The position numbers and the translations under genes are program-made. From Bacillota bacterium (GTDB taxonomy: Bacteria > Bacillota_I > Bacilli_A > Izemoplasmatales > Hujiaoplasmataceae), in NCBI GenBank assembly GCA_018816905.1, contig JAHIVB010000010.1, positions 1 through 64,000 on the forward strand: 64,000 nt of DNA, written 5' to 3'. The notes beneath the pieces were generated by a model. That model saw only the letters and a program-made list of their open reading frames with translations, did not search any database and had not been told where the DNA came from. Positions 178-22,101 of this stretch are shown here, one piece after another (within the stretch, counting starts at the first letter, position 1; each line of letters begins with the position of its first letter).

Positions 178-1797
178 TTAGAGTATCGATTCGTAAATTG
201 AATCGTAATAATACTGGTTTCCTCTGTAGGAAGTAGGCATCAGTCCTGGATAATTCGATCCATTGAATGGTGAGAAATCACCGATGCAGTTTCTTAAATC
301 TTGCGCTAATAAATCTCTCATTAAAGTGGTTGTTTGAGTCACGTTTTGCCCTGAAAGGAAAGGATAGTAGTCTTTGTCAAATACATAATCGACAGCCGCA
401 ACTGTATAGAATTGTGAGTCGTTAACTTGGACTCCATTGATGTAAAGATGACCTCCAGACGAAGTAACCTCGTCATCGAAGACGATATCTCCATCGGTAT
501 AGAATAGATTATAGATGGTTAGTCCAGTGAGTTCAACTGTTTTTAAGTAATTGTCAAACGGATAAACTTCCACAAGTTTTCCCATTGTAATGTTTCCACT
601 ATCGATGCTGACTCTAAATCCTCCAGAATTAAGTATTCCGATATCGACTCCTAAATAATCACGTATTACGGAAGCTCCCCATGTCGGCATATCATATCTT
701 GAAATATAGTCAGGTGTTGTAGCCAAGACTTCTGATACAAAGGAAGTATACTCGCTGTCTTCTTGATAATATGTAATGATGTTTTGAATTTCTTGATCTG
801 AACTACCTAAGTCTGATAAAGAGAGTGTGTAAGCATATCCCGATGAAACGGTTCTGGTCGGATAATTGAATGAAAGAGAAATCTTCGTCAGTACAGACGA
901 ACTGGAATTAGAAGCCTGTGCATAAGGCATTGCGACACCGGCTCTAGAAACGGTTCTAGCGACGGAAGTATGAGAATGGCCATTGAATACTGCATCCACA
1001 TAGTGATCGCCCGTAAAGGCTGAAATAGCTACATTATCGTCGATATCATAATCATGGATCGACGCAATCACGATATCACAAAATTCTTGAGTTCGTAATA
1101 CGGAAGCGTAATCATATACCGTCATGACGGGATCTAAGAATTCGATGTTTTCTACTCTGGAAGCAGAAATTGAATTGATGACTTCTCCGATAACGCCGAT
1201 TATGCCAACACGTAATCCTTCGATTTCAACAACGGTATAAGGCTCTGTATTTGGTAATGTTTCCTGGGTGTCTTTATAGACAATGTTCGCTGCTAATATC
1301 GGAAAAGACGCTTCTCCGTTTTCTTCCAACCCGTCAGTATATTTCAAGACTTCTTCGATTCCCCAATCAAATTCATGGTTTCCCAGTGTGAAGGAAGAAA
1401 GTCCGATTTCATTGAAAACATCGATAATCGGTCTTCCGTGATAATAGTTGGAGAGTGCGGTTCCTTGAAAGATATCGCCCGAAGATATGAAAATCGAATA
1501 TGGATTATTTTCAACGGCATTCGAAATATAACCACCCACAGCGGAAAGTGTATCCATGCTAGTATAGGCTCCACCGTGAAAGTCATTCATTGAATATAAA
1601 TCCAAGACAATATTGTCAGGATGAGTGGATTGAGTAGATGACGTTGTAGTCTCTAAGGTTGTCGTCTCTAACGTTGTGGTTGAAGATGTGGTATCTTGCG
1701 TCGTTACGGTCTCAGTCGTGGAAGTCGTACTCAGACCACAGCCGATAAGAACCATTGCGAGAAGCAAAGTTGTAAAGAAAATAAATAGTTTTTTCAT
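178..1797 (-). CDS. Secreted 5'-nucleotidase (UshA-like) lipoprotein
   Basis: 539 aa. The N-terminus is a lipoprotein signal with lipobox LIGC near residue 20, followed by a Thr/Ser-rich linker to about residue 58, so it should be anchored outside the membrane. The metallophosphoesterase domain (about 64-330) shows the metal motifs NDFHGG, GNHEFDWG and NGHSHT. The C-terminal 5'-nucleotidase substrate domain follows, with LNSGGFR and YPFDN. The family strips phosphate from nucleotides outside the cell. Start supported by AGGGAGG a few bases upstream. It is monocistronic. With deoD, surE and the deoxyribose microcompartment it fits nucleic-acid scavenging; that link is an inference. The exact substrate (nucleotide or cyclic nucleotide) cannot be told from sequence. 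Confidence 0.9.
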   Translation of the reverse strand: MKKLFIFFTTLLLAMVLIGCGLSTTSTTETVTTQDTTSSTTTLETTTLETTTSSTQSTHPDNIVLDLYSMNDFHGGAYTSMDTLSAVGGYISNAVENNPYSIFISSGDIFQGTALSNYYHGRPIIDVFNEIGLSSFTLGNHEFDWGIEEVLKYTDGLEENGEASFPILAANIVYKDTQETLPNTEPYTVVEIEGLRVGIIGVIGEVINSISASRVENIEFLDPVMTVYDYASVLRTQEFCDIVIASIHDYDIDDNVAISAFTGDHYVDAVFNGHSHTSVARTVSRAGVAMPYAQASNSSSSVLTKISLSFNYPTRTVSSGYAYTLSLSDLGSSDQEIQNIITYYQEDSEYTSFVSEVLATTPDYISRYDMPTWGASVIRDYLGVDIGILNSGGFRVSIDSGNITMGKLVEVYPFDNYLKTVELTGLTIYNLFYTDGDIVFDDEVTSSGGHLYINGVQVNDSQFYTVAAVDYVFDKDYYPFLSGQNVTQTTTLMRDLLAQDLRNCIGDFSPFNGSNYPGLMPTSYRGNQYYYDSIYESIL

Positions 1798-1844: not shown

Positions 1845-1874
1845 AAAAAAAAAGAAAGAGGAAAAACCTCTTTC
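1845..1874 (-). terminator. Intrinsic terminator of the 1327-aa CvpA-repeat gene
   Basis: Arms 1854-1861 and 1867-1874 (GAAAGAGG with CCTCTTTC) form a hairpin followed on the minus strand by nine T. It lies just past the stop codon of the repeat-protein gene. Confidence 0.8.
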
Positions 1875-1884
1875 TTCATAAGGA

Positions 1885-4800
1885 TTAAATGAGTCCGTAA
1901 TGTGTCAATACTTCATTGATTCCAGCTTCCGTGAGGAAGGTGAATGGATCATTGTTCATATAAGATGTATTGGCTGGCCAGTATAAATCGAATGGATCAT
2001 CGGAAGTCATTAAGGTTTCTAACTGATCCGTCAAAATATTTCTAACAATCATCGAGTCTAATACGATGTCCCTGTCACCTGCAGAGAGAGATGCAATTGC
2101 AGCGTAACTGAACGAAGCGGAGGTGAAATCACCAGCGGCGAGTGTATTTGAAGCGATGATGAATGCCTTGATTTCTGCGACCGTTGTGACACTGACGATA
2201 CCATAGATCGTCTCTTGTGCGAGCGCAGGAATCTGAGTATTGATATTGGCATTTCCTTTTAACATATTGTCAACTGTGATATGCATTGAACCGCTCGCAA
2301 GCAAGGTATCCAGCTGTGCATTAGATAATCCAGATACAATAGATGCATCCATACTTCCACTGAAATCGGAGATTCCAAGTGTTTGTAAAGAAGTCAGTAA
2401 AGCGATAAGTTCAGTTTTTTCAATTTGCTCACCTGCATCTACGACACCGTCAAGCATAATTCCCTCTCTTAAAGCCGTTGGGACAATGAGAGTTACTTGT
2501 CCAGGACCGCTTGTTTCATCCAGGGCATTTTCAAGGATGTAATAAGATACAGTGGCTTGCATTGTTGCACTTTCAAGCAAATCATTGAAATCGACTGAGA
2601 AAATCGTTGCCGGAGACAAATCGAAAGTGGACAGATCTGTCAAGCCAAGAAGTTCAAGTGCATCAATAATTTTTTGTATTTCTACTTTTGTGACATATTC
2701 AACGCCACCAACGACATTCACACGGATATCAGTTCCAAACTCATCTTGAGTCGGAATGACTAATGTACCGCTTGATACATTCGTCAATTGGTCAGAAAGC
2801 GTTGCTTGTAGGGATGAACTCAACAGGATTAATTCAGAATTGTCAAATAAATTGGTCGATGAAATCGAAGTTGTGAAAGAATCCAAATCGGAATATCCCA
2901 TCGCAAGAAGGGCATTGATCAATGCTTTAATCTCTGATTTCACCACAAATGTGGTTTCATTGCCTAAAGGTCCTGTTTCTACCTGTACAGGCGTGATGCC
3001 ATCTTCTTCTACTAGAGGGATGATTAAAATGGTATCACCAATATCAAATAATGTTTTCGATATGGTCGCTTGCATGATTGCAGAATCGAGTAAAGTGTTT
3101 TGATCTGCTTCTAATGCAAATGTTGATAAGTTAATCGAATTCGTTAATGATGAAGGATCGGTAATTCCCATTAAGTCAAGAGCATCGAATAAGTTGCCTA
3201 ATTCGGTCTTTTCAATGAATGTAGCCGATGCCGTCTCGATGATTACATCGTTTCCTAATTCGTCTTCATAAGGAATGGTTACGGAACCGGATCCTAGCCC
3301 TAAAATGATATCGGATACGGTCGCATGTATAATCGCTGAAGCCAGTAATTCTGTTTGATGCGTAAGGATCAGCGATGTATCTTCTAAGTTGATCGAATCG
3401 AAATCGGTGATATCGATTGCATAAAGCGCTTTTAACATATTTCCAATTTCTAATACAGTTAAATATTCTGTACTGAATGCGGTGAATTTAATTGAGGTGC
3501 CATCTTGGTCTTCCGTAGGAACAATCAAAATGCTTCCAGTTCCACTGCCAAGATCGATAATCATTTTTGATACGGTCGCATGAACGATTTTTGAATCTAG
3601 TAGAACCTCAATCAAATCATCATCTAGTGTGACGGGATCTCCTACAGGAGGAATCAATTCAAGTGATGAAATAATGGAAGCATCAAATGCAAAATTGTCA
3701 AAGTCGTCAAAGCCTAACACCTGGATTGACTTGATTAGGGCTGTGATTTCAGAAGCTGAAACCACATTGACACCTAATCCGTCTACCAATACACTTTGAA
3801 TCACATCACTAGGGACGACAAGCGGATCGGTATTCATATCGTATATCATTTTTCCGATGGTTGAAGAAATAATCTGTGAAGACATCAATGTATCTAAATC
3901 AGTATCGGAAAAGGCTAATATTTTTTGAACGTCAAACGATGTTTCATCGTCAATGGTGGTCACAATCAATGCGATTGATTTAGCTAAAGCTTTGAGTTCT
4001 TCTTTCAAGAGGTAGCCATATTCGTCCAAGACAGCATCTGGAACCACGAGAGGAAGATCTCCCAAGTCTTCAGATAGCAACAAATCAGAAATAGTCGCCA
4101 CAAATACTCTAGAATTGAAGATATCATCGATATCATCATCTGATAGATTTGAAATCGTGTCAAGGCCTAAATTGTTGATATCAAAATCAGTCAAGGAACC
4201 TGTTAAAGCATTCAAAGCGATTAAAATGTTTCTTAATTCTCCAGGGGTTTCCAGATTACCGAATTCATCGAAGGTATCTCTCCATACGATGTCTGCAGGA
4301 ATGGTTAATAATTCCAAGCCTTCGATTCCGGCTTCTCCTGATAAGATGTTGATTAATGCTCCAGTAATGATTTCAGATTCCATAAGTACAGTTAAATCTA
4401 TTTTAGATACGGCTTGTAATAAGATATTGGGATCTCCACCCATAATGTCAGAAACCGTCACATCCGCATCGAGAACTTCACCTAATACTTCGCCAATGGC
4501 GATGAATTCCGCTTCCCAATCCAAATCGGCAGGGATGTCGAGGATTAATTTGATATCCCCTTCACTTTCATCAAGGTAAGGAACAAGTAAATTAGAGGCT
4601 AACAATACGACAAGCGACGAATCTGCGAAATCTCCAAATAAGTCTCTTACGAGGTCACCGGTGACCTCGATTTCATCGATGGAACCATTTCCACCAACGA
4701 CACCGGCGCTATTCAATATATCAAATAGTGTTCCAGAAATGGCGCCAAGATTTTCCAGTTCGGCTTGATAGTCTATCGAATATAGGTCTTCTGCAGAGAT

Positions 4801-5868
4801 GTTTAAAGGTGTTTCATACATTTCTGCGCCAACTTCAATTGCGACAGGCAATATGGATGTAATTAATTTAGAATTGGATAAAATCGAAAATGCTTCTCTG
4901 ATTTCATCTCCAGTGATATCTGAAATTTCTTGAGATTCATAAAAATCTGATTGAAGAAAAACATTTAACACTTCTGAGAATACACTGAGTTCATAGCGAA
5001 TCGCAATGTTTTGTTCATCGATATCAAAGGATAAAACCGAGTCAAACAAGGATAAATGAAGCGGTATTTCCAGCGTGCTTCCTTCGACTGGAACGGTAAT
5101 CATTTCCGCAAGACTCACAAAGATGTTATTGTGGTAATTCTCAATCAATTGATTCATTAGTTCAAGTTCTTCAGTAATGTCAGGCAAATCCGTCTCCGCC
5201 AAAGGAATGACTGAGTAACTTGCCTGGTAAATTTCACGCCGTGGAACGAAAGTCAAATCCGTGTCCCCTGGTAGATTGGTTGAATTCATGATTGTGGCCA
5301 AACTTTCGGTAACACTCATCACTCCCCCGAGCATAATCAATGCGACAAACACAGCCATGGCTCCGTTTAAAGCACCAAAAACGGCTCCTAAGCCTCTGTT
5401 TTTGGATGCACCTTGTTTGCTCTTGCCAAAGAATATCGCACGGACAATGAGGCATAAGAGTTTGTATATCAACAAGATGACCGTGAAATAAAGAATCGTG
5501 TAGACAATCTTTAGTACAAACATTCCAAGACCTGTAGCTATCACCATGACTTCTTCATTCATTGATGAAAGATCGATGGTATCTCCTAGGAAAGTACCCA
5601 AGATTGCGGGTAGGCTTTCTGAAAATGAAGTAAAGCCTGAGAGGTCCGGACTCACTTGCGCTAGAAGCCCTCCAAGCCATGGCATCTCCATTGTCCAGAG
5701 GATTGAAACCACCTGGTTGATGGTTAAAAAGAATAAGGCGTAAAAAATCAACATGGTCACAAAAGAAAATAAGGTTTTTTTCAACCCTCTTATCACGCCA
5801 GAAAGAATGGCTAGACCAAATATGACATAAAAAAGTAAATCCAAAGATGTAAGGAAATTCAAGTTCAT
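1885..5868 (-). CDS. Giant CvpA-like membrane protein with ~9 tandem repeats
   Basis: 1327 aa. The start was moved to the ATG at 5868 because GGAGG lies 7 bases before it; the longer reading begins 11 codons earlier without a ribosome site. Residues 1-190 resemble the CvpA (colicin V production) family: four predicted helices, with the basic loop RGLKK after helix 1 and a second basic loop (KSKQGASKNRG) before helix 4. Residues about 215-580 are a divergent region, then about nine repeats of roughly 80-90 residues run to the end (about 590-1315). Each repeat starts with an ATxS-like motif, then an IP or VP strand, then xKxEIxAxxxALxxLGI. The long domain is acidic and poor in Lys/Arg. By the positive-inside rule the repeats would lie outside the cell (inference). 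Paralogue of the 2680-aa protein across rsgA. No function is known to me. Confidence 0.8.
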   Translation of the reverse strand: MNLNFLTSLDLLFYVIFGLAILSGVIRGLKKTLFSFVTMLIFYALFFLTINQVVSILWTMEMPWLGGLLAQVSPDLSGFTSFSESLPAILGTFLGDTIDLSSMNEEVMVIATGLGMFVLKIVYTILYFTVILLIYKLLCLIVRAIFFGKSKQGASKNRGLGAVFGALNGAMAVFVALIMLGGVMSVTESLATIMNSTNLPGDTDLTFVPRREIYQASYSVIPLAETDLPDITEELELMNQLIENYHNNIFVSLAEMITVPVEGSTLEIPLHLSLFDSVLSFDIDEQNIAIRYELSVFSEVLNVFLQSDFYESQEISDITGDEIREAFSILSNSKLITSILPVAIEVGAEMYETPLNISAEDLYSIDYQAELENLGAISGTLFDILNSAGVVGGNGSIDEIEVTGDLVRDLFGDFADSSLVVLLASNLLVPYLDESEGDIKLILDIPADLDWEAEFIAIGEVLGEVLDADVTVSDIMGGDPNILLQAVSKIDLTVLMESEIITGALINILSGEAGIEGLELLTIPADIVWRDTFDEFGNLETPGELRNILIALNALTGSLTDFDINNLGLDTISNLSDDDIDDIFNSRVFVATISDLLLSEDLGDLPLVVPDAVLDEYGYLLKEELKALAKSIALIVTTIDDETSFDVQKILAFSDTDLDTLMSSQIISSTIGKMIYDMNTDPLVVPSDVIQSVLVDGLGVNVVSASEITALIKSIQVLGFDDFDNFAFDASIISSLELIPPVGDPVTLDDDLIEVLLDSKIVHATVSKMIIDLGSGTGSILIVPTEDQDGTSIKFTAFSTEYLTVLEIGNMLKALYAIDITDFDSINLEDTSLILTHQTELLASAIIHATVSDIILGLGSGSVTIPYEDELGNDVIIETASATFIEKTELGNLFDALDLMGITDPSSLTNSINLSTFALEADQNTLLDSAIMQATISKTLFDIGDTILIIPLVEEDGITPVQVETGPLGNETTFVVKSEIKALINALLAMGYSDLDSFTTSISSTNLFDNSELILLSSSLQATLSDQLTNVSSGTLVIPTQDEFGTDIRVNVVGGVEYVTKVEIQKIIDALELLGLTDLSTFDLSPATIFSVDFNDLLESATMQATVSYYILENALDETSGPGQVTLIVPTALREGIMLDGVVDAGEQIEKTELIALLTSLQTLGISDFSGSMDASIVSGLSNAQLDTLLASGSMHITVDNMLKGNANINTQIPALAQETIYGIVSVTTVAEIKAFIIASNTLAAGDFTSASFSYAAIASLSAGDRDIVLDSMIVRNILTDQLETLMTSDDPFDLYWPANTSYMNNDPFTFLTEAGINEVLTHYGLI
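2000..4110 (-). repeat. Coding tandem repeats (about 9 units) in the 1327-aa protein
   Basis: Translated on minus, repeat starts can be read at SRVFVATISD, SQIISSTIGK, SKIVHATVSK, SAIIHATVSD, SAIMQATISK, SSSLQATLSD, SATMQATVSY, SGSMHITVDN and SMIVRNILTD. The units are clearly related but diverged in DNA sequence, unlike the middle units of the paralogue. The first two and last four units match the corresponding end units of the larger protein. Confidence 0.8.
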
Positions 5869-5907
5869 GTTTGTTCCTCCTTCATAATCTATAAGTATCA
5901 TTTTACA

Positions 5908-5957
5908 TTAGATTTTCCGAATATATCATATCTACTTTATATATACGGAAAATCTAA
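5908..5957 (-). other. 12-bp perfect inverted repeat in the leader of the 1327-aa gene
   Basis: TTAGATTTTCCG (5908-5919) and CGGAAAATCTAA (5946-5957) are exact reverse complements, separated by 26 AT-rich bases that pair partly further in. It lies inside the roughly 155-nt leader between the predicted promoter (6030-6057) and the start at 5868. It could be an RNA hairpin or a paired operator. No T-run follows, so it is not a terminator. Confidence 0.55.
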
Positions 5958-6029
5958 CGAAATTATTGAATCTATTCATAACTTAATGATGAATAATGTC
6001 ATGATTTCACGCATAGAATCATTACTTTC

Positions 6030-6057
6030 ATTATACTGCTTTCTCGTCTGTTTGCAA
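6030..6057 (-). promoter_or_regulatory. Promoter of the 1327-aa CvpA-repeat gene
   Basis: On the minus strand TTGCAA (6052-6057) and TATAAT (6030-6035) are 16 bases apart. Transcription from here gives a leader of about 155 nt. The 337-base gap 5869-6205 contains this promoter, the inverted repeat at 5908-5957 and the rsgA terminator, and no other gene that I can see. Confidence 0.55.
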
Positions 6058-6166
6058 TATCAATTGCTCATATTTTTTGTGAAGAATTGATTCTACCATG
6101 TCCCCAAAATAACCATGAAAAAAGAAATGATGAATCCCTAGCCAAAAACCTACAAATTCAATATAA

Positions 6167-6196
6167 AACGCGCCAAAAACAATGATTTGGCGCGTT
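6167..6196 (-). terminator. Intrinsic terminator of rsgA
   Basis: Eleven-base perfect arms (AACGCGCCAAA at 6167-6177, complement at 6186-6196) with an 8-base loop, followed on minus by TTTTATATT. It begins about 10 bases after the rsgA stop codon. Confidence 0.8.
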
Positions 6197-6205
6197 AGAG
6201 TAGGA

Positions 6206-7222
6206 CTACTTCTTCGTTTTATGCTGTAAAAGATTTTTCCGAGTATTCTCTGCAGTTCGGTTTAATTCTCTTTTCATCTTATGGTAGTTTTTGAGCCTTG
6301 AAGAATCGAGTAGTTTTTCGTCTACGGCCAATTTTACAGAACAACCAGGTTCGACAGTATGCGTACAGTCTCTGAATTTACAGGTTTTTCCCAAATCTTC
6401 GATATCGCTAAACGAAGCGTCAAGCTCGATCGATTCGATTTGGATTTCCCTCATTCCGGGCGTATCGATGACAAGCGCTCCATAAGGAGACAAGACCATC
6501 TGTCTAGAAGTCGTGGTGTGTTTTCCCCGATGATCTTTACGTAGTCCATTCGTCGCAAAGAACTCTTCACCCAAAAAATAGTTGATGATTGAAGATTTTC
6601 CTACGCCGCTCGATCCGATTAAGGCATAGGTCTTCCTGGACATGATATAGGGAAGCAATTCATCATATCCTGTCTCGCTTTGATTCGAACAGGTTAAGAC
6701 TTCAGCCCCCAAACAAATTTGTTCGGTTTCTAAAAGCTGTCTTTCATAGTCTACTGCTAAATCCGATTTTGTGAGAACGACGACGGGCCGTGCACCACTA
6801 TTCCATACAATGCTTAAGTAACGCTCCAAACGTCTTAAATTGAAATCTAAGTCCATTGACATGCAGATTAAAATCGTGTCGATGTTCGAGGCAATCGCTT
6901 GAATCATTTCCTTAGGTCCTGGTGCTTTTCTCTTTAAAAAACTTTTACGGGGTAATACTTTAACAATCGTGCCTTTTTCATGGGTATCGTCAGTATGTTT
7001 AACCAATACCCAGTCTCCGACAACTGGAAATGAGGTTTCTTCGATTGCTTCATAGATGAATTTACCACTCACTTGAGCAGAGATGGCACCTTCTTCGGTC
7101 TCTATTAAGAAAAAATCTCGCTGTTGCAAAGTAACTCGTGCTAAAAAAAGAAAGTCGTCACTTACCGCCATCTCTTGGATTTCTTTCGAAAGTCCATAGG
7201 CGGAAAGATGTTGATAATTCAT
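6206..7222 (-). CDS. rsgA: Ribosome small-subunit-dependent GTPase A (RsgA/YjeQ)
   Basis: 338 aa. Start placed at the ATG at 7222, where GGAGG lies 5 bases upstream; an upstream in-frame ATG pair has no ribosome site. An N-terminal OB-fold (about 1-70) is followed by the circularly permuted GTPase: G4-like TKSDLA, then the P-loop GSSGVGKSS, then DTPGM. The C-terminus carries a zinc motif with C, H and C residues (CKFRDCTHTVEPGC). The family is a checkpoint in 30S ribosomal subunit maturation. The gene stands alone between the two giant CvpA-repeat genes, with its own promoter and terminator. Nothing in the sequence suggests a functional link with them. Confidence 0.95.
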   Translation of the reverse strand: MNYQHLSAYGLSKEIQEMAVSDDFLFLARVTLQQRDFFLIETEEGAISAQVSGKFIYEAIEETSFPVVGDWVLVKHTDDTHEKGTIVKVLPRKSFLKRKAPGPKEMIQAIASNIDTILICMSMDLDFNLRRLERYLSIVWNSGARPVVVLTKSDLAVDYERQLLETEQICLGAEVLTCSNQSETGYDELLPYIMSRKTYALIGSSGVGKSSIINYFLGEEFFATNGLRKDHRGKHTTTSRQMVLSPYGALVIDTPGMREIQIESIELDASFSDIEDLGKTCKFRDCTHTVEPGCSVKLAVDEKLLDSSRLKNYHKMKRELNRTAENTRKNLLQHKTKK

Positions 7223-7259
7223 TGTTTCCTCCATCATTTAAATTGAGTGGAGGTACTTT

Positions 7260-7319
7260 TTATGCCGCGTTCATACCTCCACTGTCATAAGTGTTTGCGG
7301 CTAGAAATTGATCAATCAT
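7260..7319 (-). CDS. Possible 19-residue leader peptide upstream of rsgA
   Basis: In the rsgA leader an ATG at 7319 opens a 19-codon frame, MIDQFLAANTYDSGGMNAA, ending in TAA at 7260. AGGAGG lies 9 bases before the ATG, which is why I list it. A second SD-like GGAGG occurs inside the frame. There are no codon runs that would suggest classical attenuation. It may be a translated leader or chance; I know of no homologue. Confidence 0.3.
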   Translation of the reverse strand: MIDQFLAANTYDSGGMNAA

Positions 7320-7353
7320 TAAACATGACCTCCTTTAATATGAATCTAGGTAT

Positions 7354-7381
7354 AGTATACAATAGAATTTAATATTTGAAA
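7354..7381 (-). promoter_or_regulatory. Promoter of rsgA
   Basis: On the minus strand TTTCAA (7376-7381) and TATACT (7354-7359) are 16 bases apart. This gives a leader of about 125 nt before rsgA, containing the short reading frame at 7260-7319. Confidence 0.5.
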
Positions 7382-7411
7382 AGGGCTAATTTTAGAGACA
7401 ATGAAAAGAAA

Positions 7412-7436
7412 AAGTCGGGGACATGATCCCCGACTT
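7412..7436 (-). terminator. Intrinsic terminator of the 2680-aa gene
   Basis: GC-rich 10-base arms (AAGTCGGGGA with TCCCCGACTT) and a 5-base loop, followed on the minus strand by TTTCTTTTC. It begins 14 bases after the stop codon. Confidence 0.85.
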
Positions 7437-7449
7437 CGTTTGAATACTT

Positions 7450-10400
7450 TTAACTGTTAATGAATGCAATCGCATCAATTGCGCCTTGTTTTGTTAAGAA
7501 CAGTGCTGGATTGCTTTCTTCGTAATCGGTGTTGTCGATGGTGTAGAACGGTCCTCCAGGGAAGTTTGCCGCATTCTTAGCCGCTACTGCGGTTTCAACG
7601 TCGCTTGTAATCATGTTTCTTACAATCATCGAAGATAGAACGGTGTCTTGTTCTGCAGGAGTCAATGCTGCAATCGCTGCTAAGTCGAAGTCGACACTTG
7701 AAATGCTAGAGCCACCAACGGTGTTCGCTGCCTTAATGAAGGCTTTGATTTCTGCTACGGTTGTTATGTCAGTCATACTGAATACGTCTTCTACTGCCAA
7801 ATCAGGAATGAATGTATTGATGTTTGCATTTCCTTTCAGCATGTTGTCAACGGTGACTTGCATAGAACCGCTTGCGAGTAAGATATCGAGTTGAGCGTCT
7901 GAAAGTCCAGTCACAACGGAAGCATCGACTGCACCACTGAAGTCTGATACGCCAAGAGTTTCAAGCGAGGTGAGCAATGCCTTCAGTTCGACTTTCTCGA
8001 TTTGTGCTTGAGTACCTGCACCAACATTCAGAGTTTCTCTGAAGAAGTTCGGAACAATCAACGAACCACTGCCAGCGGCAGCCGAATCGTCTAGTGCTCC
8101 ACTTAATAAGGTATCGGATACGGTTGCCTGCATTGAGTAAGACGCAAGCAAGATGTCATAATCCGCTGCAAATACATTGGCAGGATTAATGGAAATTGCA
8201 CTGAAGTCGGTTAAGCCAAGGAGTTCTAGAGAAGTTAAGATGGCTTTAATTTCGACTAATTCGATGTATGTTACATCACTCATAACGATTCTGATCGTGT
8301 AATCAGCTGCGTAATTGGTATTTGGAATGATTAAGTTACCACCGGTATCGTTGAGTAATTTATCGGATAATGTTGCCTGAATCGAACTTGATAGCAACAA
8401 GGTATTTGGATCGTCGAAGAATTTAGATGAATCAATCGAAGCTCCAAACGTATCAAGATCGGTGTATCCCATCGCAAGGAAGGCATCAATTAAAGCTTTG
8501 ATTTCAGTTCTAACGATGAAATCGGTTGAACTGACTGTTTTTTGAACGCGGTTGATTTCTGCGACGCCTGCTTGTGTATATAGCGGTACGATTAATACTG
8601 CATCGTCTAAATCAAGCATGGTCTTTGAAATCGTTGCGTGCATGGAAGCACTTGTTAATACTGTATCTTGGTCGGCTGATAACGCTAGTGCGCTAATGTC
8701 AAAGCTTCCGTCAAATGCGGTGATGTCGGTGATGCCAAAGACTTCTAAAGCATTGATGATGGCTTTGATTTCGTCTTTGTAAATGAAGTGTGTCAATGAG
8801 ACTGTAGCTTCAATAACGTCTCCTTCATCATCGGTATGAGGAATCAATAATACACTTGAACCAAGATCATCTAGTTGTTTTGAAATCGTTGCGTGCATCG
8901 ATGCACTGGCAAGCAATGTATCTTGATTTGTACCATTGAATAGATTGGTCAGTGATACGGTACCTGTAAATGCGGTGATATCATTAATACCCAAAACTTC
9001 TAATGCATTGATAATCGCTTTGATTTCATCTTTGTATATGAAGTGCGTTAAGGATACCGTCGCCTGGATAGGATTACTTAATACATCCGTTGAAGGTACT
9101 AACAATACGGAAGAACCTAAATCATCAAGTTGTTTTGTAATTGTCGCATGCATCGAAGCCGACGACAACAACGTATCTTGATTTGGTTCGTTGAATAGAT
9201 TTAGAAGCGAGACTGTACCTGTAAATGCAGTAATGTCTGTGATGCCTAATACTTCAAGTGCATTGATGATGGCCTTAATCTCGTCTTTGTAGATAAAATG
9301 AGTCAGTGAGACAGTACCTTGAATCGAGACGTTCAAAACATCGGTATCCGGAATCAATAGAACACTTGAACCCAAATCATCGAGTTGTTTTGTAATCGTC
9401 GCATGCATCGAAGCGGAAGATAATAATATGTTTTGATTCGTATCGTCAAACAAATTGGCTAAGGATACGGTTCCTGTGAAAGTTGTAATATCATCGATTC
9501 CTAGAATTTCCAAAGAATCAATAATGGATTTAATCTCAGATTTGAAGATATAGTGCGTACCCGACACCGTTGCTTGGATGGAAATGCCATCCACATCAGT
9601 TAGTGGTACAAGCAAGACGGATGAGCCTAAATCATCGAGTTGTTTTGTGATTGTCGCATGCATCGAAGCACTTGCGAGCAGAATATTCTGATTAGTATCT
9701 CCATAGATTAAGGTTAGATCAACACTACCGTCAAAGGAGTTGATATCTGTAATGTTCAGAAGTTCAAGAGCCTCGAACATGGCGTCAATTTCTGTTTTAA
9801 CCACATACTCTGTCTCAAAACCGACTGGCCCAAAGGTGACTCTAATGTTTTGAGCAGCTTCGTCCTGAAGCGGAACACGTAACACTGCATCACCGAGATC
9901 TAATAGTTGTTTCGAAATCGTCGCATGCATCGAGGCACTGGCTAGAAGAATGTCTCTGTTTCCTTGAACGTAAAAACTGGTTAAGTCGATGTTTCCATCG
10001 AAGGTAGAAATATCCGTGATTCCAAGAATTTCAAGAGATTCGAACATAGCGTCAATTTCTGTCTTGATGACGTATTCTGTCTCGAATCCTACTTCTCCTG
10101 CTGATACTCTAATTGAAGTTACATTATCAGAAGCAATATAAGGAACGCTTAATACGGCTGGTCCTAAATCAAGCAACTGTTTCGTAATTGTCGCATGCAT
10201 GGAAGCACTTGCTAACAGAATGTCTCTATTTGCTTGAATATAAAAGTCGGTTAAGTCGATATTTCCATCAAAAGTGGTAATGTCTGTGATTCCCAAGATT
10301 TCAAGGGATTCAAACATGGCGTCAATTTCTGTTTTGATTACAAATTCCGTTTCATTTCCAACCGGACCGACAAGGACTCTAATATCCGTCGTATTGTCTG

Positions 10401-13400
10401 AAGCCCGATAAGGAACGGTTAATGTAGCAGCTCCTAGGTCAAACAATTGTTTTGATATCGTTGCGTGCATTGAAGCACTTCCTAATAACACGTCACGATT
10501 GGCTTGAATGTAGAAGCTTGTCAGATCGATATCGCCTGAGAAGGTCGTTACATCGGTAACGCCTAGAATTTCAAGAGATTCAAAGATCGCAGAAATCTCA
10601 GCTTTTGAAACATATTCTGTTTCATCACCGATGGGTCCTGTCATCAATCGAACATCCACTAATGAAGAATCGGTATAAGGAACCGTTAATGTTGCAGCTC
10701 CCAAATCGAGAAGTTGCTTGGAAATGGTCGCTTGCATGATGGAAGAGGACAGTAGAACATTACGGTTTGTTTCATCATAAAAACTGGTTAAATCAACCGA
10801 ACCATCGAAGGTTTCAACGTCGGTGATGCCAAGAAGATCCATGGCATGAATCATAGCCACAAGTTCGGATGCAAGGACGTAGTCCGTTGCTTCTGTTAAC
10901 AATCCGACAGTGATTCTTATTTCGGTTATGTCGTTGTCCGCAAAGAATGGAACGTTAATCGTATCAGATGCGTCAAGGTCCAAAACTTGTTTTGAAACGG
11001 TCGCTTGGATGACTGAAGAAGATAATACGGTTTCAGCATTCGTTCCGTCGGCGAGCGTACTAAGATCAACCGTACCCGAGAAGGTCTCTAAGTCTGTGAG
11101 CCCTAAAATATCAAGCGCATCGAAAATCGATATGAGTTCAGATTTAATTAAATAAGTGGTCTCAAATCCCAAAGGACCTGTAACTACTTGTATCAAGGTG
11201 ACTCCATCTTCTTGGTAGGTAGGAACTTCTAGAGTTCCATCGGTGCCTAAATCAAAGATTTGTTTTGAGACCGTTGCTTGGATGACACTGGAGAGTAACA
11301 AAGTATCCGCATTGTCTCCTTCTGTAATGACAGAGAGGTCGACACTTCCGTCAAAGGTTTCGACATCGGTGATACCTAAGATGTTCAAAGCGTCGATCAT
11401 TGCGGAAAGTTCGGATTTGATAATATATTCCGTATCGTTTGGAGCACTACCAACAAGAACTCTGATTTGAGTCGTATTATCTTGAGCCATATAAGGAACT
11501 GTTAAAGTACCTGAAGTAGCGAGATCAAAAATTTGATCTGATACGGTGGCTTGGATTGTTGAAGAAGAAAGTAAGATGTCACTGTTTCCGGGAATCGCTA
11601 GTAAGCTTAAATCAACACTACCACTAAAGGTCGTTACGTCTGTAATGCCTAAGACGTTGAGTCCATCGATGATGGCGCTGATTTCACTTTTAATCATATA
11701 TTCGGTTTCAAAACCAACAGGACCGACAGTGACTCGGATTTCAGTCACACCGTTTTGAGCAAGATATGGAACATTGAGGGTTCCGTCGGTTGCTAAATCA
11801 AAAATTTGATCTGAAACGGTCGCTTGAATGATGGCAGAAGTTAAGAGAATATCACTATTTCCTTCCACAGCCAACAGACTTAAATCGATGTTTCCGTCAA
11901 AGGTTGTAACGTCTGTGATTCCTAATACGTCCAATGCATCAAATACAGCGGAGATTTCAGCTTTTGTAATATAATCGGTTTCAAAACCGACTGGACCTAC
12001 GCTGACTCTAACTTCAGTGACTCCGTCTTCTTCAACATAGGGAATATTTAAGAATCCATCGGATGATAAATCAAAAACTTGTGTGGATACAGTGGCATGA
12101 ATAATCGAAGAGGAAAGTAAGATGTCAAGATTGCCTTCCACGCTTAACACACTTAAATCGACATTTCCATCAAAAGTGGTAACGTCATCGATTCCTAAAA
12201 CATCAAGAGCATCAAAAACCGCTCCAATCTCTGCTTTGGTAATATATTCGGTTTCAAAACCGACTGGACCTACGGTCTTTCTGATTTCCGTCGTTCCATC
12301 GGAAGCCACAAACGGTACTTCAATCAATCCGTCTCCTGTCAAATCTAACACTTGGGTGGAAACCGTCGCATGAAGAATCGAAGAGGAAAGTAAGATGTCA
12401 AGATTGCCTTCCACGCTCAACAAACCTAAATCGACGTTTCCATCAAAAGTGGTAACGTCTGTAATGCCCAAGACATCAAGTGCATCGAATACCGCACTGA
12501 TTTCGTCTTTAATGATATATTCGGTAACGAATCCAACTGGACCAACTGTTTTTCTAATTTCAGTCGTACCATCAGAAGCGACATAAGGAACTTCAATCAA
12601 TCCGTCTCCTGTCAAATCCAAAACTTGAGTGGAAACCGTCGCATGAAGGATAGCGGATGATAAAAGCGTTTGAAGATTGTCTCCTTCTGTCAAAGTAGAC
12701 AAGTCGACATTTCCATCAAAAGTTGAAATGTCCGATATGTTCAATACTGCAAGCGCATCAAATGCGGCTTGAAGTTCTGCTTTCGAAATGTACTCTGTTT
12801 CAAATCCAGGATCTCCTACGGTGATTCGAATTTCATTTTCGTCTTCGTCAACATAAGGAATTGTGACTAAATCTCCAGCTAAACTATAAAGTTGGTCAGA
12901 GATTGTCGCATGTAAAATCGCTGAAGCAAGGAGCGTTTCAGAATTATCCGTAATCAATGAAAGATCCAAGGAATCTATATTATTGAAGTCTTGGATGTCT
13001 AAAGAAAGAATCGCTTGAAGAACAGCCTCAAGTTCATCTCTGGATATATATTCAATGCTTCCAACACTACTGCGAATGACATTCTCATCTTGATCGACAT
13101 AAGGAACGGTCAAAATCGCTTCGTCGCCTTCAGCGAAACCTAAGATGACATCTGAAAGTGTTGCATGCAAGATGTCTGAAGCAAATAGTTTCTCCGCTTT
13201 GGCTGGATCTAAAGTCGTGGGTTCGTCTTCGAGTCCCAAAGCTTGTAGTATCGATGGATCTATTTCTATATTCTCAAAATCAGAAATTCCAAGAACGGTA
13301 ACGGCTTGAATGATTTTTGATATTTCTGCTTTTGATATTACGTCTTGAGCGACTGTTTTAACAAAGATTTCTGTAATCGCAGAGTCAGGAATGGTAAGTG

Positions 13401-15492
13401 TATCGCCTGCCATGGTAATAATTAAATCACCAATTGTAGCTGACAATATATCGGAGCCAACCAAAGTATCGATGTCTTCTGAGGACAGATTAAAGGCTTT
13501 GGAAATGTCAAATCCAAATCCATCTTCCTCACAAGCGATGTCTCCTTCGTCACAAAGAAGACTGGATGTCACCAAGGTGAGCGATGCGGATAGTGCTTGA
13601 AGTTCTGTTTTCAGTAAATAGCCGTCTTCATCGAAAACGGAATCGGGAATGATCAAAGGAAGTCCCAAATCCTGATTCAAGAGAAAATCAGAGATGGTAG
13701 CGACCAATATTCTGGATTCAAATAGCGAATTAATCGCTTCCTCCGTCAATCCTGAAAGCGAGCTGATTGAAAGATTATTAAAATCAATCGTGGAGGCTAC
13801 TCCACCAAGAGCATTGACTGCAAGTAAGATGTTTCTAAGTTCACCGTTTGAGATGATATTTCCGTCATCGTCAAGTTCATCCAACCATTGAATGCCATCG
13901 GGGATGATAATCATATTGAGTTCTTCTATATCCAAAGCACCCTCGAAAATATTGATTAGCGCCTGTGTTATTAATTTTGATTCCAGTATCACCGTAAAAT
14001 CAAGGGTCGAAAGTGCAGAAATGATTGCGAAAGGATCTTCATCGTTGATGATGTCAAAAGATACTCCGGTATCCAAAACCGAACCAATGATTTCTCCAAA
14101 AGCCGCCAATTCGTCTTCCCAAACAATATCTGCAGGAATCGTGACTATGGCACGTATCTCCTCACTGGCCATTTCTAATACCGGCTCGATTGCAACATAG
14201 GCCGCAAGCGTGATAAGCTGAGAATCTCCTAAGGCATCAAATACGTCTCTGACGTCATCTCCATCCAATGTCAATGTTTGAAGATCAATGTTTCCGGAAA
14301 GCATTCCGGCTGCATTCGCTATATCGAAAACTGTCCCAGCGATTTCACCTAACTGAGCGAGTTCGGTTGACCAATCAATGGCATACAATTCCTCAGTAGG
14401 AAGATCAATGTCGACTTCATATAAGCTAGCCCCTACTTCTACTGCAATAGGAATCAAACTGGTAAGAAGCGCAGAATTGGAGATGGTATCGAACACGAGT
14501 CGAATATCATCTCCGGAAATATCCGTCAATTCATTTGTCTCAAAATAAGAAGAATCCAACAATTGAACTGCAACAGTCGAAATGACTTGAAGTTCATGTC
14601 GAATCGCAATTTGAGTGTCGTGGTAATCAAATGATAGAACTTCATCAAAGAGATATAAATCTAGTTGCATCTCTTCAGAAGTAACAGGGTCGGTGACAGT
14701 CACTTGTGCAGCTGTACTGACAATGATATTTGCCTTATATGCCGTAACCATGTCATTCATCATCGCAACCGCTTCTTCAAACTCCGCTGGAATTTGAACA
14801 GGGCTTTCGGCTAAAACGATGGAACGACTTGCTTGATAAATATCTTCTCTGGGAAATTCCATTTCCACAGTATCAGGGTCATTTTCAGGAGCGAGAGCGA
14901 CAAAGCTTTCAGAAATGGAGATGAGTCCGCCAAAGCTGATTAAAGATACAAATACAGTAACGACACCATTAAGTAAACCAAATAGTGCTCCCATGCCTCT
15001 GTTTTTAGATGCATACTTGTCATTTTTCTTTTTAGAAGGAAAGAAAATAACTCGAATTAAAAAGAATAAGATGCGGTAGATCAGGTTGAAGACTGTAAAA
15101 TAAAGAATCAACCATACAATCTTCACTACAAACATGGCGAGTCCCGTGACGAAAGCTATTAGTTCAACATTCGTCAGTGCGGCTGCATAATCCGCAGGAA
15201 TGAAGAGTTCAAGTGCCAAAGGCAATGCGCCAGACAGCGAGGTTGCGGTAGAAAGTTCAGGTGCAAGCATCGCAAATCCTTGTCCGATATAGGGTGAATT
15301 AACCGTCCATAAAAAATTAACGGCCAAGTCGAGCGTCAAGAAAAAGATGGCGTACAAACCGAGTACGACAAGGAATGAGAATAACGATTTCTTAAGACCT
15401 CGCAAAAATCCAAACAGCATTCCTAGGCCTAACATCCCAAAAAAGGCTATATTGAAATAAAGAGCAAAATCCATGTTATCAAGTTGTGGCAT
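7450..15492 (-). CDS. Giant CvpA-like membrane protein with ~24 tandem repeats
   Basis: 2680 aa, by far the longest gene here. AAGGAGG sits just upstream of the ATG at 15492. Residues about 8-200 form a CvpA-like domain of four hydrophobic segments with basic loops RGLKK and PSKKKNDKYASKNRG. If both loops are cytoplasmic, the 2450-residue remainder is extracellular (inference). A diverged region (about 215-590) leads into about 24 repeats of 85-91 residues. The unit reads roughly: S-S-I-HATVSKQLLDL, then VPY, a gap, TEYIxKxEIxA, FDALDVLGITD, TFDGNVDL and ILLSS. The array is rich in Asp, Glu, Ser and Thr and nearly free of Cys. There is no LPxTG signal. CvpA itself is about 160-180 aa, so this is a strongly extended form. 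Role unknown; adhesion or surface coat is possible. Confidence 0.8.
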   Translation of the reverse strand: MPQLDNMDFALYFNIAFFGMLGLGMLFGFLRGLKKSLFSFLVVLGLYAIFFLTLDLAVNFLWTVNSPYIGQGFAMLAPELSTATSLSGALPLALELFIPADYAAALTNVELIAFVTGLAMFVVKIVWLILYFTVFNLIYRILFFLIRVIFFPSKKKNDKYASKNRGMGALFGLLNGVVTVFVSLISFGGLISISESFVALAPENDPDTVEMEFPREDIYQASRSIVLAESPVQIPAEFEEAVAMMNDMVTAYKANIIVSTAAQVTVTDPVTSEEMQLDLYLFDEVLSFDYHDTQIAIRHELQVISTVAVQLLDSSYFETNELTDISGDDIRLVFDTISNSALLTSLIPIAVEVGASLYEVDIDLPTEELYAIDWSTELAQLGEIAGTVFDIANAAGMLSGNIDLQTLTLDGDDVRDVFDALGDSQLITLAAYVAIEPVLEMASEEIRAIVTIPADIVWEDELAAFGEIIGSVLDTGVSFDIINDEDPFAIISALSTLDFTVILESKLITQALINIFEGALDIEELNMIIIPDGIQWLDELDDDGNIISNGELRNILLAVNALGGVASTIDFNNLSISSLSGLTEEAINSLFESRILVATISDFLLNQDLGLPLIIPDSVFDEDGYLLKTELQALSASLTLVTSSLLCDEGDIACEEDGFGFDISKAFNLSSEDIDTLVGSDILSATIGDLIITMAGDTLTIPDSAITEIFVKTVAQDVISKAEISKIIQAVTVLGISDFENIEIDPSILQALGLEDEPTTLDPAKAEKLFASDILHATLSDVILGFAEGDEAILTVPYVDQDENVIRSSVGSIEYISRDELEAVLQAILSLDIQDFNNIDSLDLSLITDNSETLLASAILHATISDQLYSLAGDLVTIPYVDEDENEIRITVGDPGFETEYISKAELQAAFDALAVLNISDISTFDGNVDLSTLTEGDNLQTLLSSAILHATVSTQVLDLTGDGLIEVPYVASDGTTEIRKTVGPVGFVTEYIIKDEISAVFDALDVLGITDVTTFDGNVDLGLLSVEGNLDILLSSSILHATVSTQVLDLTGDGLIEVPFVASDGTTEIRKTVGPVGFETEYITKAEIGAVFDALDVLGIDDVTTFDGNVDLSVLSVEGNLDILLSSSIIHATVSTQVFDLSSDGFLNIPYVEEDGVTEVRVSVGPVGFETDYITKAEISAVFDALDVLGITDVTTFDGNIDLSLLAVEGNSDILLTSAIIQATVSDQIFDLATDGTLNVPYLAQNGVTEIRVTVGPVGFETEYMIKSEISAIIDGLNVLGITDVTTFSGSVDLSLLAIPGNSDILLSSSTIQATVSDQIFDLATSGTLTVPYMAQDNTTQIRVLVGSAPNDTEYIIKSELSAMIDALNILGITDVETFDGSVDLSVITEGDNADTLLLSSVIQATVSKQIFDLGTDGTLEVPTYQEDGVTLIQVVTGPLGFETTYLIKSELISIFDALDILGLTDLETFSGTVDLSTLADGTNAETVLSSSVIQATVSKQVLDLDASDTINVPFFADNDITEIRITVGLLTEATDYVLASELVAMIHAMDLLGITDVETFDGSVDLTSFYDETNRNVLLSSSIMQATISKQLLDLGAATLTVPYTDSSLVDVRLMTGPIGDETEYVSKAEISAIFESLEILGVTDVTTFSGDIDLTSFYIQANRDVLLGSASMHATISKQLFDLGAATLTVPYRASDNTTDIRVLVGPVGNETEFVIKTEIDAMFESLEILGITDITTFDGNIDLTDFYIQANRDILLASASMHATITKQLLDLGPAVLSVPYIASDNVTSIRVSAGEVGFETEYVIKTEIDAMFESLEILGITDISTFDGNIDLTSFYVQGNRDILLASASMHATISKQLLDLGDAVLRVPLQDEAAQNIRVTFGPVGFETEYVVKTEIDAMFEALELLNITDINSFDGSVDLTLIYGDTNQNILLASASMHATITKQLDDLGSSVLLVPLTDVDGISIQATVSGTHYIFKSEIKSIIDSLEILGIDDITTFTGTVSLANLFDDTNQNILLSSASMHATITKQLDDLGSSVLLIPDTDVLNVSIQGTVSLTHFIYKDEIKAIINALEVLGITDITAFTGTVSLLNLFNEPNQDTLLSSASMHATITKQLDDLGSSVLLVPSTDVLSNPIQATVSLTHFIYKDEIKAIINALEVLGINDITAFTGTVSLTNLFNGTNQDTLLASASMHATISKQLDDLGSSVLLIPHTDDEGDVIEATVSLTHFIYKDEIKAIINALEVFGITDITAFDGSFDISALALSADQDTVLTSASMHATISKTMLDLDDAVLIVPLYTQAGVAEINRVQKTVSSTDFIVRTEIKALIDAFLAMGYTDLDTFGASIDSSKFFDDPNTLLLSSSIQATLSDKLLNDTGGNLIIPNTNYAADYTIRIVMSDVTYIELVEIKAILTSLELLGLTDFSAISINPANVFAADYDILLASYSMQATVSDTLLSGALDDSAAAGSGSLIVPNFFRETLNVGAGTQAQIEKVELKALLTSLETLGVSDFSGAVDASVVTGLSDAQLDILLASGSMQVTVDNMLKGNANINTFIPDLAVEDVFSMTDITTVAEIKAFIKAANTVGGSSISSVDFDLAAIAALTPAEQDTVLSSMIVRNMITSDVETAVAAKNAANFPGGPFYTIDNTDYEESNPALFLTKQGAIDAIAFINS
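7600..13720 (-). repeat. Coding tandem repeat array, about 24 units of 255-273 bp
   Basis: The minus-strand translation repeats an (H/Q)AT(V/I)(S/T) start motif about every 85-91 codons, from about residue 590 to 2625. Neighbouring units between about 11.9 and 12.7 kb are nearly identical in DNA: the same block begins at 12122 and again at 12395, exactly 273 bases apart. The outer units are more diverged. This pattern suggests growth of the array by recombination or slippage in its middle. Confidence 0.85.
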
Positions 15493-15669: not shown

Positions 15670-16545
15670 ATGTTGAAGAAATTTCTTTTATTGATGATTA
15701 TTTTATCGAGTACTTTGTTAAGTGGTTGTTCTTTTCTAACGATGACCTTTGATTTAACGACGAACTCAACCGTTTCAACGACACTTCCAACGACAATTAA
15801 TGGCACGATTAGCTTAGGAGATCAAGAATACTCTAGTTTTTCACTTTATCATTCAGGAACCTATGATATCGAAGATATCGATGATTATAATGAAACTCTT
15901 TTATCAACAAGAGACTTGATTCGCAGGAGCAATGTTTTCATCATCTCGAAAGCCTATGAATACACGAAACCTTATCCATGGTCTACTTCAACCGTTTTAT
16001 CAATCGTGGGGTCTTCCCAAGGTAGCGGAGTTATTTTCAAAGAAGATGACGAATATTATTATGCATTGACAAATTATCATGTTTTGGATGCAGAGGCTGA
16101 CGAATTTACGTATGAAATCGAAGCTTTTGGTGATTCAATGTCTTATGACGCAGAATTAGTGGTATATGATGAGGCCTTAGACCTTGCCGTATTGAAATTC
16201 ACGAAGGAGTCAAGAGAAGAGATCCATATTATCGACTATACTACCCGGCTCTTTACGTTGTTTAATCCTGATGAATTGGTGTTAGCTGTAGGAAATCCTT
16301 TGTCTTTACCAAACAACGTTACCTTTGGTGAATTCAAATCCATGGAGACGATTTCAAATGCTGAATTCAAGGTCATCTACCATGACGCTCCTATACACGA
16401 GGGATCGAGTGGGGGAGCGCTCGTCGATATTGACGGAAATTTACTTGGACTGAATACTTGGGGACTCACTTCTTCTGACGAATACTCGTTTGCAATCCCG
16501 AATTACATCATTTACATGTTTTTGGTTAATTACGGTATCATTTAA
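15670..16545 (+). CDS. Trypsin-like (HtrA-type) serine protease lipoprotein
   Basis: 291 aa. Start at 15670, with AGGAGG 8 bases upstream; the longer frame adds 32 unlikely residues. Signal peptide with lipobox LLSGC, so probably a membrane-anchored extracellular lipoprotein, followed by a Thr-rich spacer. The protease fold shows the triad: His137 in NYHVL, Asp171 in LDLAVL and Ser247 in GSSGGA. The C-terminal PDZ domain of DegP/HtrA is absent; the protein ends just after the protease domain. Divergent from the giant CvpA-repeat gene across 177 bases. A role in processing or quality control of surface proteins is possible but only inferred from the neighbourhood. Confidence 0.85.
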   Translation: MLKKFLLLMIILSSTLLSGCSFLTMTFDLTTNSTVSTTLPTTINGTISLGDQEYSSFSLYHSGTYDIEDIDDYNETLLSTRDLIRRSNVFIISKAYEYTKPYPWSTSTVLSIVGSSQGSGVIFKEDDEYYYALTNYHVLDAEADEFTYEIEAFGDSMSYDAELVVYDEALDLAVLKFTKESREEIHIIDYTTRLFTLFNPDELVLAVGNPLSLPNNVTFGEFKSMETISNAEFKVIYHDAPIHEGSSGGALVDIDGNLLGLNTWGLTSSDEYSFAIPNYIIYMFLVNYGII

Positions 16546-16552
16546 AAAATAG

Positions 16553-16584
16553 AGGAGCCAATGAATCTTGGCTCCTTTTTTTTT
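16553..16584. terminator. Terminator between convergent protease and GH2 genes
   Basis: AGGAGCCA (16553-16560) pairs with TGGCTCCT (16569-16576), followed by nine T on plus. On minus the same hairpin is followed by a shorter T-rich stretch, so it can serve both converging genes. Confidence 0.8.
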
Positions 16585-21378: not shown

Positions 21379-22101
21379 TTATTTGTTTTTAGATGTAACT
21401 AGGTATGATTTAAAAAATGGGAGAATCGCCCAGATGATGAGCACACCTATATAGATTACTTGAAGAAAGACAGATAAAAGTATTAAAGTCAACCCTGAAT
21501 ACATGACTCCTGCCATGACGTTTCCTAGCAGAACTCCAGATAAATAAGCTGGCGAGATAATCATCACATATTGAAAGGATATGGGAATCAATCCATTTTC
21601 ATAGAAAATTGGCGTGATTGAGAAAATGACAATGTAGGCTATATAACTGACGGATAGAATATTGTTGCTTTTAGATATGATTGAAAGTGTCAAACCAATA
21701 ATGATGTGTAGGAAGGTTCCTAATAGGTATGCACCGATAAAGGCGATGTAACTAATATCTAATTTTTGGATAAAGAGGAATACTAGCGTATAGAGTATGA
21801 CTGGAATAAGCTGTATGACCAATGCAGCAAACAATTTAGCCAAAAGAACGACATGACTTTTGCAACAAGTCGATAGCGTTGGCAAGATTGTTCCTTCTTC
21901 TTTTTCGATGTACATTGATATCGAAAAAAGAATGACTGGAAGGACGAATACGCTGACGTAGATGAAATTGCTTGGATTAAAAGTAGGAAACAACGCCATC
22001 GCAAACGTGAAGATGAATACGATTGTAATAAACACATGGAACAATCGATATTCGAAAAATCGTTGCAAGTCATTGATGAAGATTTTTTTAAAATTATTCA
22101 T
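21379..22101 (-). CDS. ABC-2-type transporter permease
   Basis: 240 aa with six predicted membrane helices and little else. A short N-terminal cytoplasmic segment (FKKIFINDLQRFFEYR) precedes helix 1, as in ABC-2 permeases. A central KEEGT motif in the loop after helix 2 is also typical of that family. Its start overlaps the end of the TetR-ABC fusion gene by 8 bases, so the two surely work together as a single exporter or sensor. Substrate unknown. Confidence 0.75.
   Translation of the reverse strand: MNNFKKIFINDLQRFFEYRLFHVFITIVFIFTFAMALFPTFNPSNFIYVSVFVLPVILFSISMYIEKEEGTILPTLSTCCKSHVVLLAKLFAALVIQLIPVILYTLVFLFIQKLDISYIAFIGAYLLGTFLHIIIGLTLSIISKSNNILSVSYIAYIVIFSITPIFYENGLIPISFQYVMIISPAYLSGVLLGNVMAGVMYSGLTLILLSVFLQVIYIGVLIIWAILPFFKSYLVTSKNK

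Follow-up and report, generated by a model that had tools for sequence, protein, structure and literature searches.

Giant surface repeat proteins are already known. By analogy, the nearest functional counterparts of the proteins considered here would be the fibrillar adhesins, whose relatives, the fibrillar adhesin-like (FA-like) proteins, lack a known anchor in nearly half of cases (PMC8286594), and Gli349 of Mycoplasma mobile, which combines an N-terminal membrane segment with 18 repeats of ~100 aa and a distal C-terminal foot (PMC7052211). MarP (Rv3671c) has a four-helix N-terminus that carries a periplasmic trypsin-like serine protease (PMC4992679). The locus described below joins a CvpA-type anchor to long series of a repeat, a combination that appears undescribed in the sources we searched; literature searches on CvpA with Izemoplasma or Tenericutes turned up no such proteins.

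The gene pair and its neighbours

The window (the whole stretch of 64,000 nucleotides that was analysed) carries two uninterrupted open reading frames (ORFs) on the minus strand, a short one, A, and a long one, B. Their parts and immediate surroundings are as follows, in window positions.

178-1797, minus strand: 5'-nucleotidase/UshA-like lipoprotein, downstream of A (PF02872, PF00149)
1851-1877, minus strand: terminator-like hairpin after A
1885-5901, minus strand: short CvpA-anchored tandem-repeat protein A, 1338 aa (open ORF; Pfam Colicin_V match at residues 20-208)
2050-4107, minus strand: A residues 599-1284, seven canonical repeats and one divergent copy (unit HMM)
6167-6196, minus strand: terminator-like hairpin between rsgA and A
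6206-7237, minus strand: rsgA, between B and A
7411-7437, minus strand: terminator-like hairpin between B and rsgA
7450-15492, minus strand: long CvpA-anchored tandem-repeat protein B, 2680 aa (open ORF, with homologues among relatives)
7453-7626, minus strand: B residues 2623-2680, conserved C-terminal cap, YE..NP..FLT..G (C-termini of relatives)
7627-13710, minus strand: B residues 595-2622, 22 canonical repeats and one divergent copy (unit HMM; AF2 of three units)
13711-14880, minus strand: B residues 205-594, linker and conserved region, predicted to be extracytoplasmic (relatives' alignment and AF2 model)
14881-15492, minus strand: B residues 1-204, CvpA-like anchor with four predicted transmembrane (TM) helices (AF2, hydrophobicity, hhalign, charge)
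15670-16545, plus strand: HtrA/trypsin-like lipoprotein, divergently transcribed (PF13365, 77.6 bits; HTRA1/DegP-like in PDB)

Both proteins have the same order of parts: a predicted hydrophobic four-TM region, a disordered linker, a conserved region of ~350 residues, the repeats and a short C-terminal cap, which is kept in both paralogues and across families f1, f3 and f10. Translation of A probably starts at M12. In B the disordered linker (residues 205-230) leads into a conserved alpha/beta and helical region that includes an LFDxVLSF motif, and residues ~205-594 form a separate conserved region, not canonical repeat. The original prediction, two giant ORFs with CvpA-like and tandem-repeat parts, proved real: the frames are intact and every canonical unit is significant alone.

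Gene order is constant in family f1: HtrA/trypsin-like lipoprotein (on the opposite strand), long protein, short protein, 5'-nucleotidase lipoprotein. Every f1 locus that has the flank in question has an extracytoplasmic lipoprotein there, the HtrA-like one, with its likeness to HTRA1 and DegP catalytic domains, in 14 of 14 and the 5'-nucleotidase in 12 of 12. Outside f1 the neighbours differ, and f3, f10 and other lineages have no adjacent HtrA-like protease. Giant genes elsewhere stand without these partners. For the undescribed system that had been suspected in the protein pair, a surface cassette of four genes, in one family only, is the more fitting description.

The pair had also been taken to form a unit flanking rsgA, which the comparison of loci does not support. 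Only in the host genome does rsgA lie between the two genes; in the congener L015 it is found beside the short gene, at the same end, while the congener L067 has a ~133-bp gap free of rsgA and 12 further loci also lack it at this place. The long and short genes are directly adjacent in 13 other loci. This absence, together with the terminator-like hairpins that bound the gene, indicates that rsgA is a recent insertion outside the cassette, and we rejected it as a functional partner.

Other genes lie close by. GH2 beta-galactosidase-like and GH36 alpha-galactosidase genes (16583-21338, minus strand) adjoin the cassette, and one or both are also present at the cassette in several f1 relatives, L016, L017, L020-L022, L024, L026, L028 and L029. 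At 22094-23545 (minus strand) a single ORF contains a TetR-type DNA-binding domain and an ABC transporter ATPase, an unusual fusion of regulator and transporter ATPase; a membrane protein follows it (21379-22101), and similar-looking ORFs occur near the cassette in L023, L025 and L027.

The membrane anchor and its orientation

In the AF2 model of B the anchor helices span residues 9-31, 33-63, 109-150 and 165-198, with which the hydrophobic segments agree. Against the Pfam CvpA family (PF02674, Colicin_V; gathering cut-off 29.3 bits), A scores a sub-threshold 22.2 bits and B gives no match to this family, so that on Pfam alone the CvpA identity would stay doubtful. Three orthologues exceed the cut-off (G011 with 30.3, G021 with 31.8 and G032 with 30.1 bits), and 14 of the 32 aligned members have a CvpA match at E<=0.01. 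In addition, when the anchors of the giant proteins were compared, profile to profile, with 17 ordinary CvpA proteins of the same group, hhalign gave a probability of 92% (E 6.7e-7, 100 columns); the aligned part was TM3-TM4, including the LG.xFG motif before TM4. These three results argue for a divergent CvpA-type domain, and the CvpA-like anchor of the original prediction thus holds at the level of profiles.

An ordinary CvpA protein of 243 aa is encoded elsewhere in the host genome. The earlier statement that normal CvpA proteins stop shortly after their helices was too strong, given the MarP-type proteins and a CvpA protein of ~780 aa in family f3. The latter, a second type of CvpA-domain protein, occurs in L100-L103 beside a ~620-aa secreted and a ~340-aa membrane protein, an arrangement that presents CvpA as a carrier for other parts. 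The largest ORF among those fetched, 6,049 aa in L085 (1-18147), has a CvpA-like N-terminus; the canonical repeat was not detected there.

The distribution of charges around the helices is highly consistent. Of 40 aligned sequences, all have a basic TM1-TM2 loop and 39 a basic TM3-TM4 loop (in f3 this loop is larger, with tens of extra K/R residues), while K+R exceeds D+E in 0 of 40 for the TM2-TM3 loop and the region after TM4. Under the positive-inside rule this pattern places both termini of the anchor, and the repeats, on the outside; the repeats are very probably extracellular. A and B are also low in K+R and poor in Cys, as are both neighbouring lipoproteins: Cys makes up 0.07% of A/B vs ~0.6-1.8% of many cytoplasmic enzymes of the window, where some cytoplasmic proteins are Cys-free too. 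The description of the pair as acidic, huge, membrane-anchored surface proteins is supported, with charge bias as the basis for the outside location.

Fold, evolution and distribution of the repeat

A unit HMM detects canonical units of 78-95 aa lying head to tail in both proteins, with i-Evalues of ~1e-12 to 1e-35: 22 in B (residues 595-2542), followed by a divergent copy (2543-2622), and 7 in A (599-1204), again followed by a divergent copy (1205-1284). By these values the series stands far above chance level. The predicted repeats are therefore present, but not over the predicted 2450 and 1100 residues: they occupy ~2030 aa in B and ~685 aa in A. The unit consensus, which agrees with the motif pattern first noticed, comprises a helix (HATxSxQLxDL), a strand starting with VP, a hairpin (IRxTVG...TEYI), a second helix (KxEIxAxxxALxxLGxTD) and an LLxS helix.

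Modelling of three tandem units, one of the checks proposed with the original prediction, gave a confident AF2 structure (85 aligned rows, pLDDT 95.7), and the pTM of 0.90 means that the orientation from unit to unit is confidently predicted as well. Helices 80-88 and 90-102, with which one unit closes and its neighbour opens, adjoin at the junction between the two. Foldseek searches with this model against PDB and BFVD returned nothing at E<=0.001 (best PDB E-value 0.17). The model of the N-terminal 700 residues is weaker (pLDDT 80, pTM 0.66) and returned nothing from PDB at E<=0.001. At the sequence level, the repeat matched no family in Pfam, NCBIfam or PDB: B had no PDB match, the three-unit profile had PDB matches only at E>0.2, and no Pfam family recurred in more than 4 of 85 members. 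As suspected, then, the repeat matches no known family in these databases, and it probably represents a new fold, judged from the model against PDB and BFVD.

Matches inside B to DUF7881_C, choline kinase N, HDOD, HpaI and others were rejected. They are partial, nearly all lack a passing stretch and they differ between members, which points to chance hits of Pfam and NCBIfam models on a long repetitive sequence. PADLOC defence models gave no match in A, and in B one partial 18-bit match without a passing stretch.

How the arrays evolve can be read from the units themselves. Adjacent middle units are up to 91% identical in protein vs 84% in DNA (87% vs 70% for another pair), and the datable pairs of recent duplicates have dN/dS values of 0.07-0.16. 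This excess of protein over DNA identity, with the low dN/dS, indicates strong purifying selection on recently duplicated units. Units 1-3 and 20-23 of B have their best matches among the end units of other genomes; most of units 4-19 are closest to one another; and repeat number differs greatly between relatives. The end units are thus conserved in position, with a middle that expands and contracts. Fixed ends, an elastic middle and conserved sequence are what would be expected of a stalk of variable length.

The layout of CvpA-like anchor plus repeat, which the original prediction had proposed to look for in related genomes, was found there: homologues exist in 47 of 61 close relatives, among them Izemoplasmatales/'Izimaplasma' MAGs, strain zrk2 and a Haloplasma MAG. 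Among the genomes of the class that were sampled, 91 of 296 have a match to the N-terminal profile, for the most part within ORFs of 1,000-6,000 aa, and genomes from many lineages usually have one or two giant genes. Profile iteration located the repeat inside the giant ORF in 16 of 20 distant loci, a count that excludes the fifth round (collapsed alignment, 9 sequences), with one weak stray match in another ORF. When the search was widened to the phylum, the additional genomes all came from the same class, which is not in itself proof that the family is missing from other groups. At G206:C1:1314026-1314430, a further giant open frame, the second in that genome and 3,689 aa long, weakly matches the part of the profile that contains repeats.

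Is the family tied to the loss of the cell wall? No transpeptidase (PF00905) was found in the host genome, and the cultured Izemoplasma zrk13 has no distinct cell wall (PMC8397711). However, 32 of the 91 carriers have PF00905, which rules out a restriction to wall-less bacteria, so that carrying the family does not mark a genome as wall-less; in 104 genomes both the family and the transpeptidase are missing (both counts ignore phylogeny).

Possible roles and known counterparts

The best-supported part of our interpretation is anatomical: a tethered extracellular rod of variable length with a conserved tip. A CvpA-like four-helix bundle would span the cytoplasmic membrane, its two termini on the outer side, and from it an acidic, nearly Cys-free chain would lead outward through the linker and an adaptor region to 7-22 stacked alpha/beta repeats, joined into a stiff array by the helices at unit boundaries and closed by the C-terminal cap as the tip. 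Reach would be set by repeat number, and changed by duplication or loss of middle units under purifying selection. Anchor homology, repeats, predicted rod and topology come from computation; from them we infer adhesion and processing. The rod may display its tip or its repeat surface to substrates or other cells, like Gli349 in Mycoplasma mobile, adhesion being by analogy the likeliest function for a stalk of this kind. In f1 only, the HtrA-like lipoprotein could trim or quality-control the rod, on the same face of the membrane. Pfam and NCBIfam scans recognised no adhesive domain at the tip or elsewhere, and for this reason we give the full mechanism (a membrane-tethered rod serving as a fibrillar-adhesin-like stalk or spacer, with the HtrA-like lipoprotein acting on it in f1) an even chance. 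The link to the protease cannot be general, since the partner genes are confined to f1.

The main rival is a role as coat or scaffold, with rods packed side by side into an S-layer-like layer that lends stability to a membrane poor in, or free of, peptidoglycan. A host without transpeptidase, rigid repeats in the AF2 model, selection on the units and the presence of one or two giant genes in many lineages would all suit such a coat, but the transpeptidase counts reveal no tight link to wall loss, the large variation in repeat number between relatives fits a lattice poorly and a coat should be very abundant, so we consider it unlikely. Less probable still is an envelope stress module in the manner of MarP, in which the CvpA-repeat protein would be the platform, or the substrate or sensor, controlling the adjacent protease. 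It is possible in f1 only, where the divergent HtrA-like gene is constant and recalls the union of four helices and protease within MarP; in f3, f10 and other lineages the giant protein occurs with no such protease next door, and 22 rod-like repeats would be left unexplained.

Two further readings fare worse. Cytoplasmic repeats forming a cytoskeleton-like tether to the membrane would agree with the lack of a cleavable signal peptide, and a cytoskeletal element would also suit very long rods, but by the charge bias of 39-40 of 40 sequences the loops lie inside and the repeats on the outer side, and the composition is like that of the adjoining lipoproteins; we find this very improbable. Slippage and unequal crossing-over can generate large repeats, yet an artefact or a decaying, functionless expansion is hardly credible when frames are open across dozens of genomes, dN/dS is far below 1, end units are positionally orthologous and the fold is predicted with high confidence.

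More broadly, CvpA domains might serve as a general base in the membrane for giant rods outside the cell, built from a new repeat fold and lineage-wide in Izemoplasma-, Haloplasma- and Acholeplasma-type bacteria, whose cell surface and contacts with other cells the rods would then define. We put this forward tentatively, as clearly short of an even chance. CvpA-like domains, whose role is poorly understood, would gain a clear anatomical use as anchors for extracytoplasmic parts, and the locus supplies an undescribed repeat without solved structural match and, maybe, a major structure on the surface of a lineage that is little known and in part wall-less.

How do A and B compare with the known systems? 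With fibrillar adhesins and FA-like proteins (PMC8286594) they would share a surface-attached stalk of tandem repeats, 7 and 22 units here, but they have no recognised adhesive domain, their repeat matches no known Pfam stalk domain and their anchor is N-terminal where that of fibrillar adhesins is C-terminal. The likeness to Gli349 (PMC7052211) is one of layout only (N-terminal membrane segment, repeats, C-terminal end, wall-less cell): the anchor is laid out differently, no gliding partners are seen at the A/B locus and the genus of zrk13 is described as non-motile (PMC8397711). MarP, by its description, also has four N-terminal helices and a large extracytoplasmic part, and a trypsin-like protease adjoins the A/B cassette; in MarP, however, the protease belongs to the same chain, which has no giant repeats, whereas here it is encoded by a separate, divergent gene. 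Finally, the CvpA family (PF02674) shares with A and B the four-helix membrane domain, the G...G motif in TM1 and LG.xFG before TM4, but its ordinary members are short, while A and B add 1,100-2,500 residues that are predicted to be extracytoplasmic.
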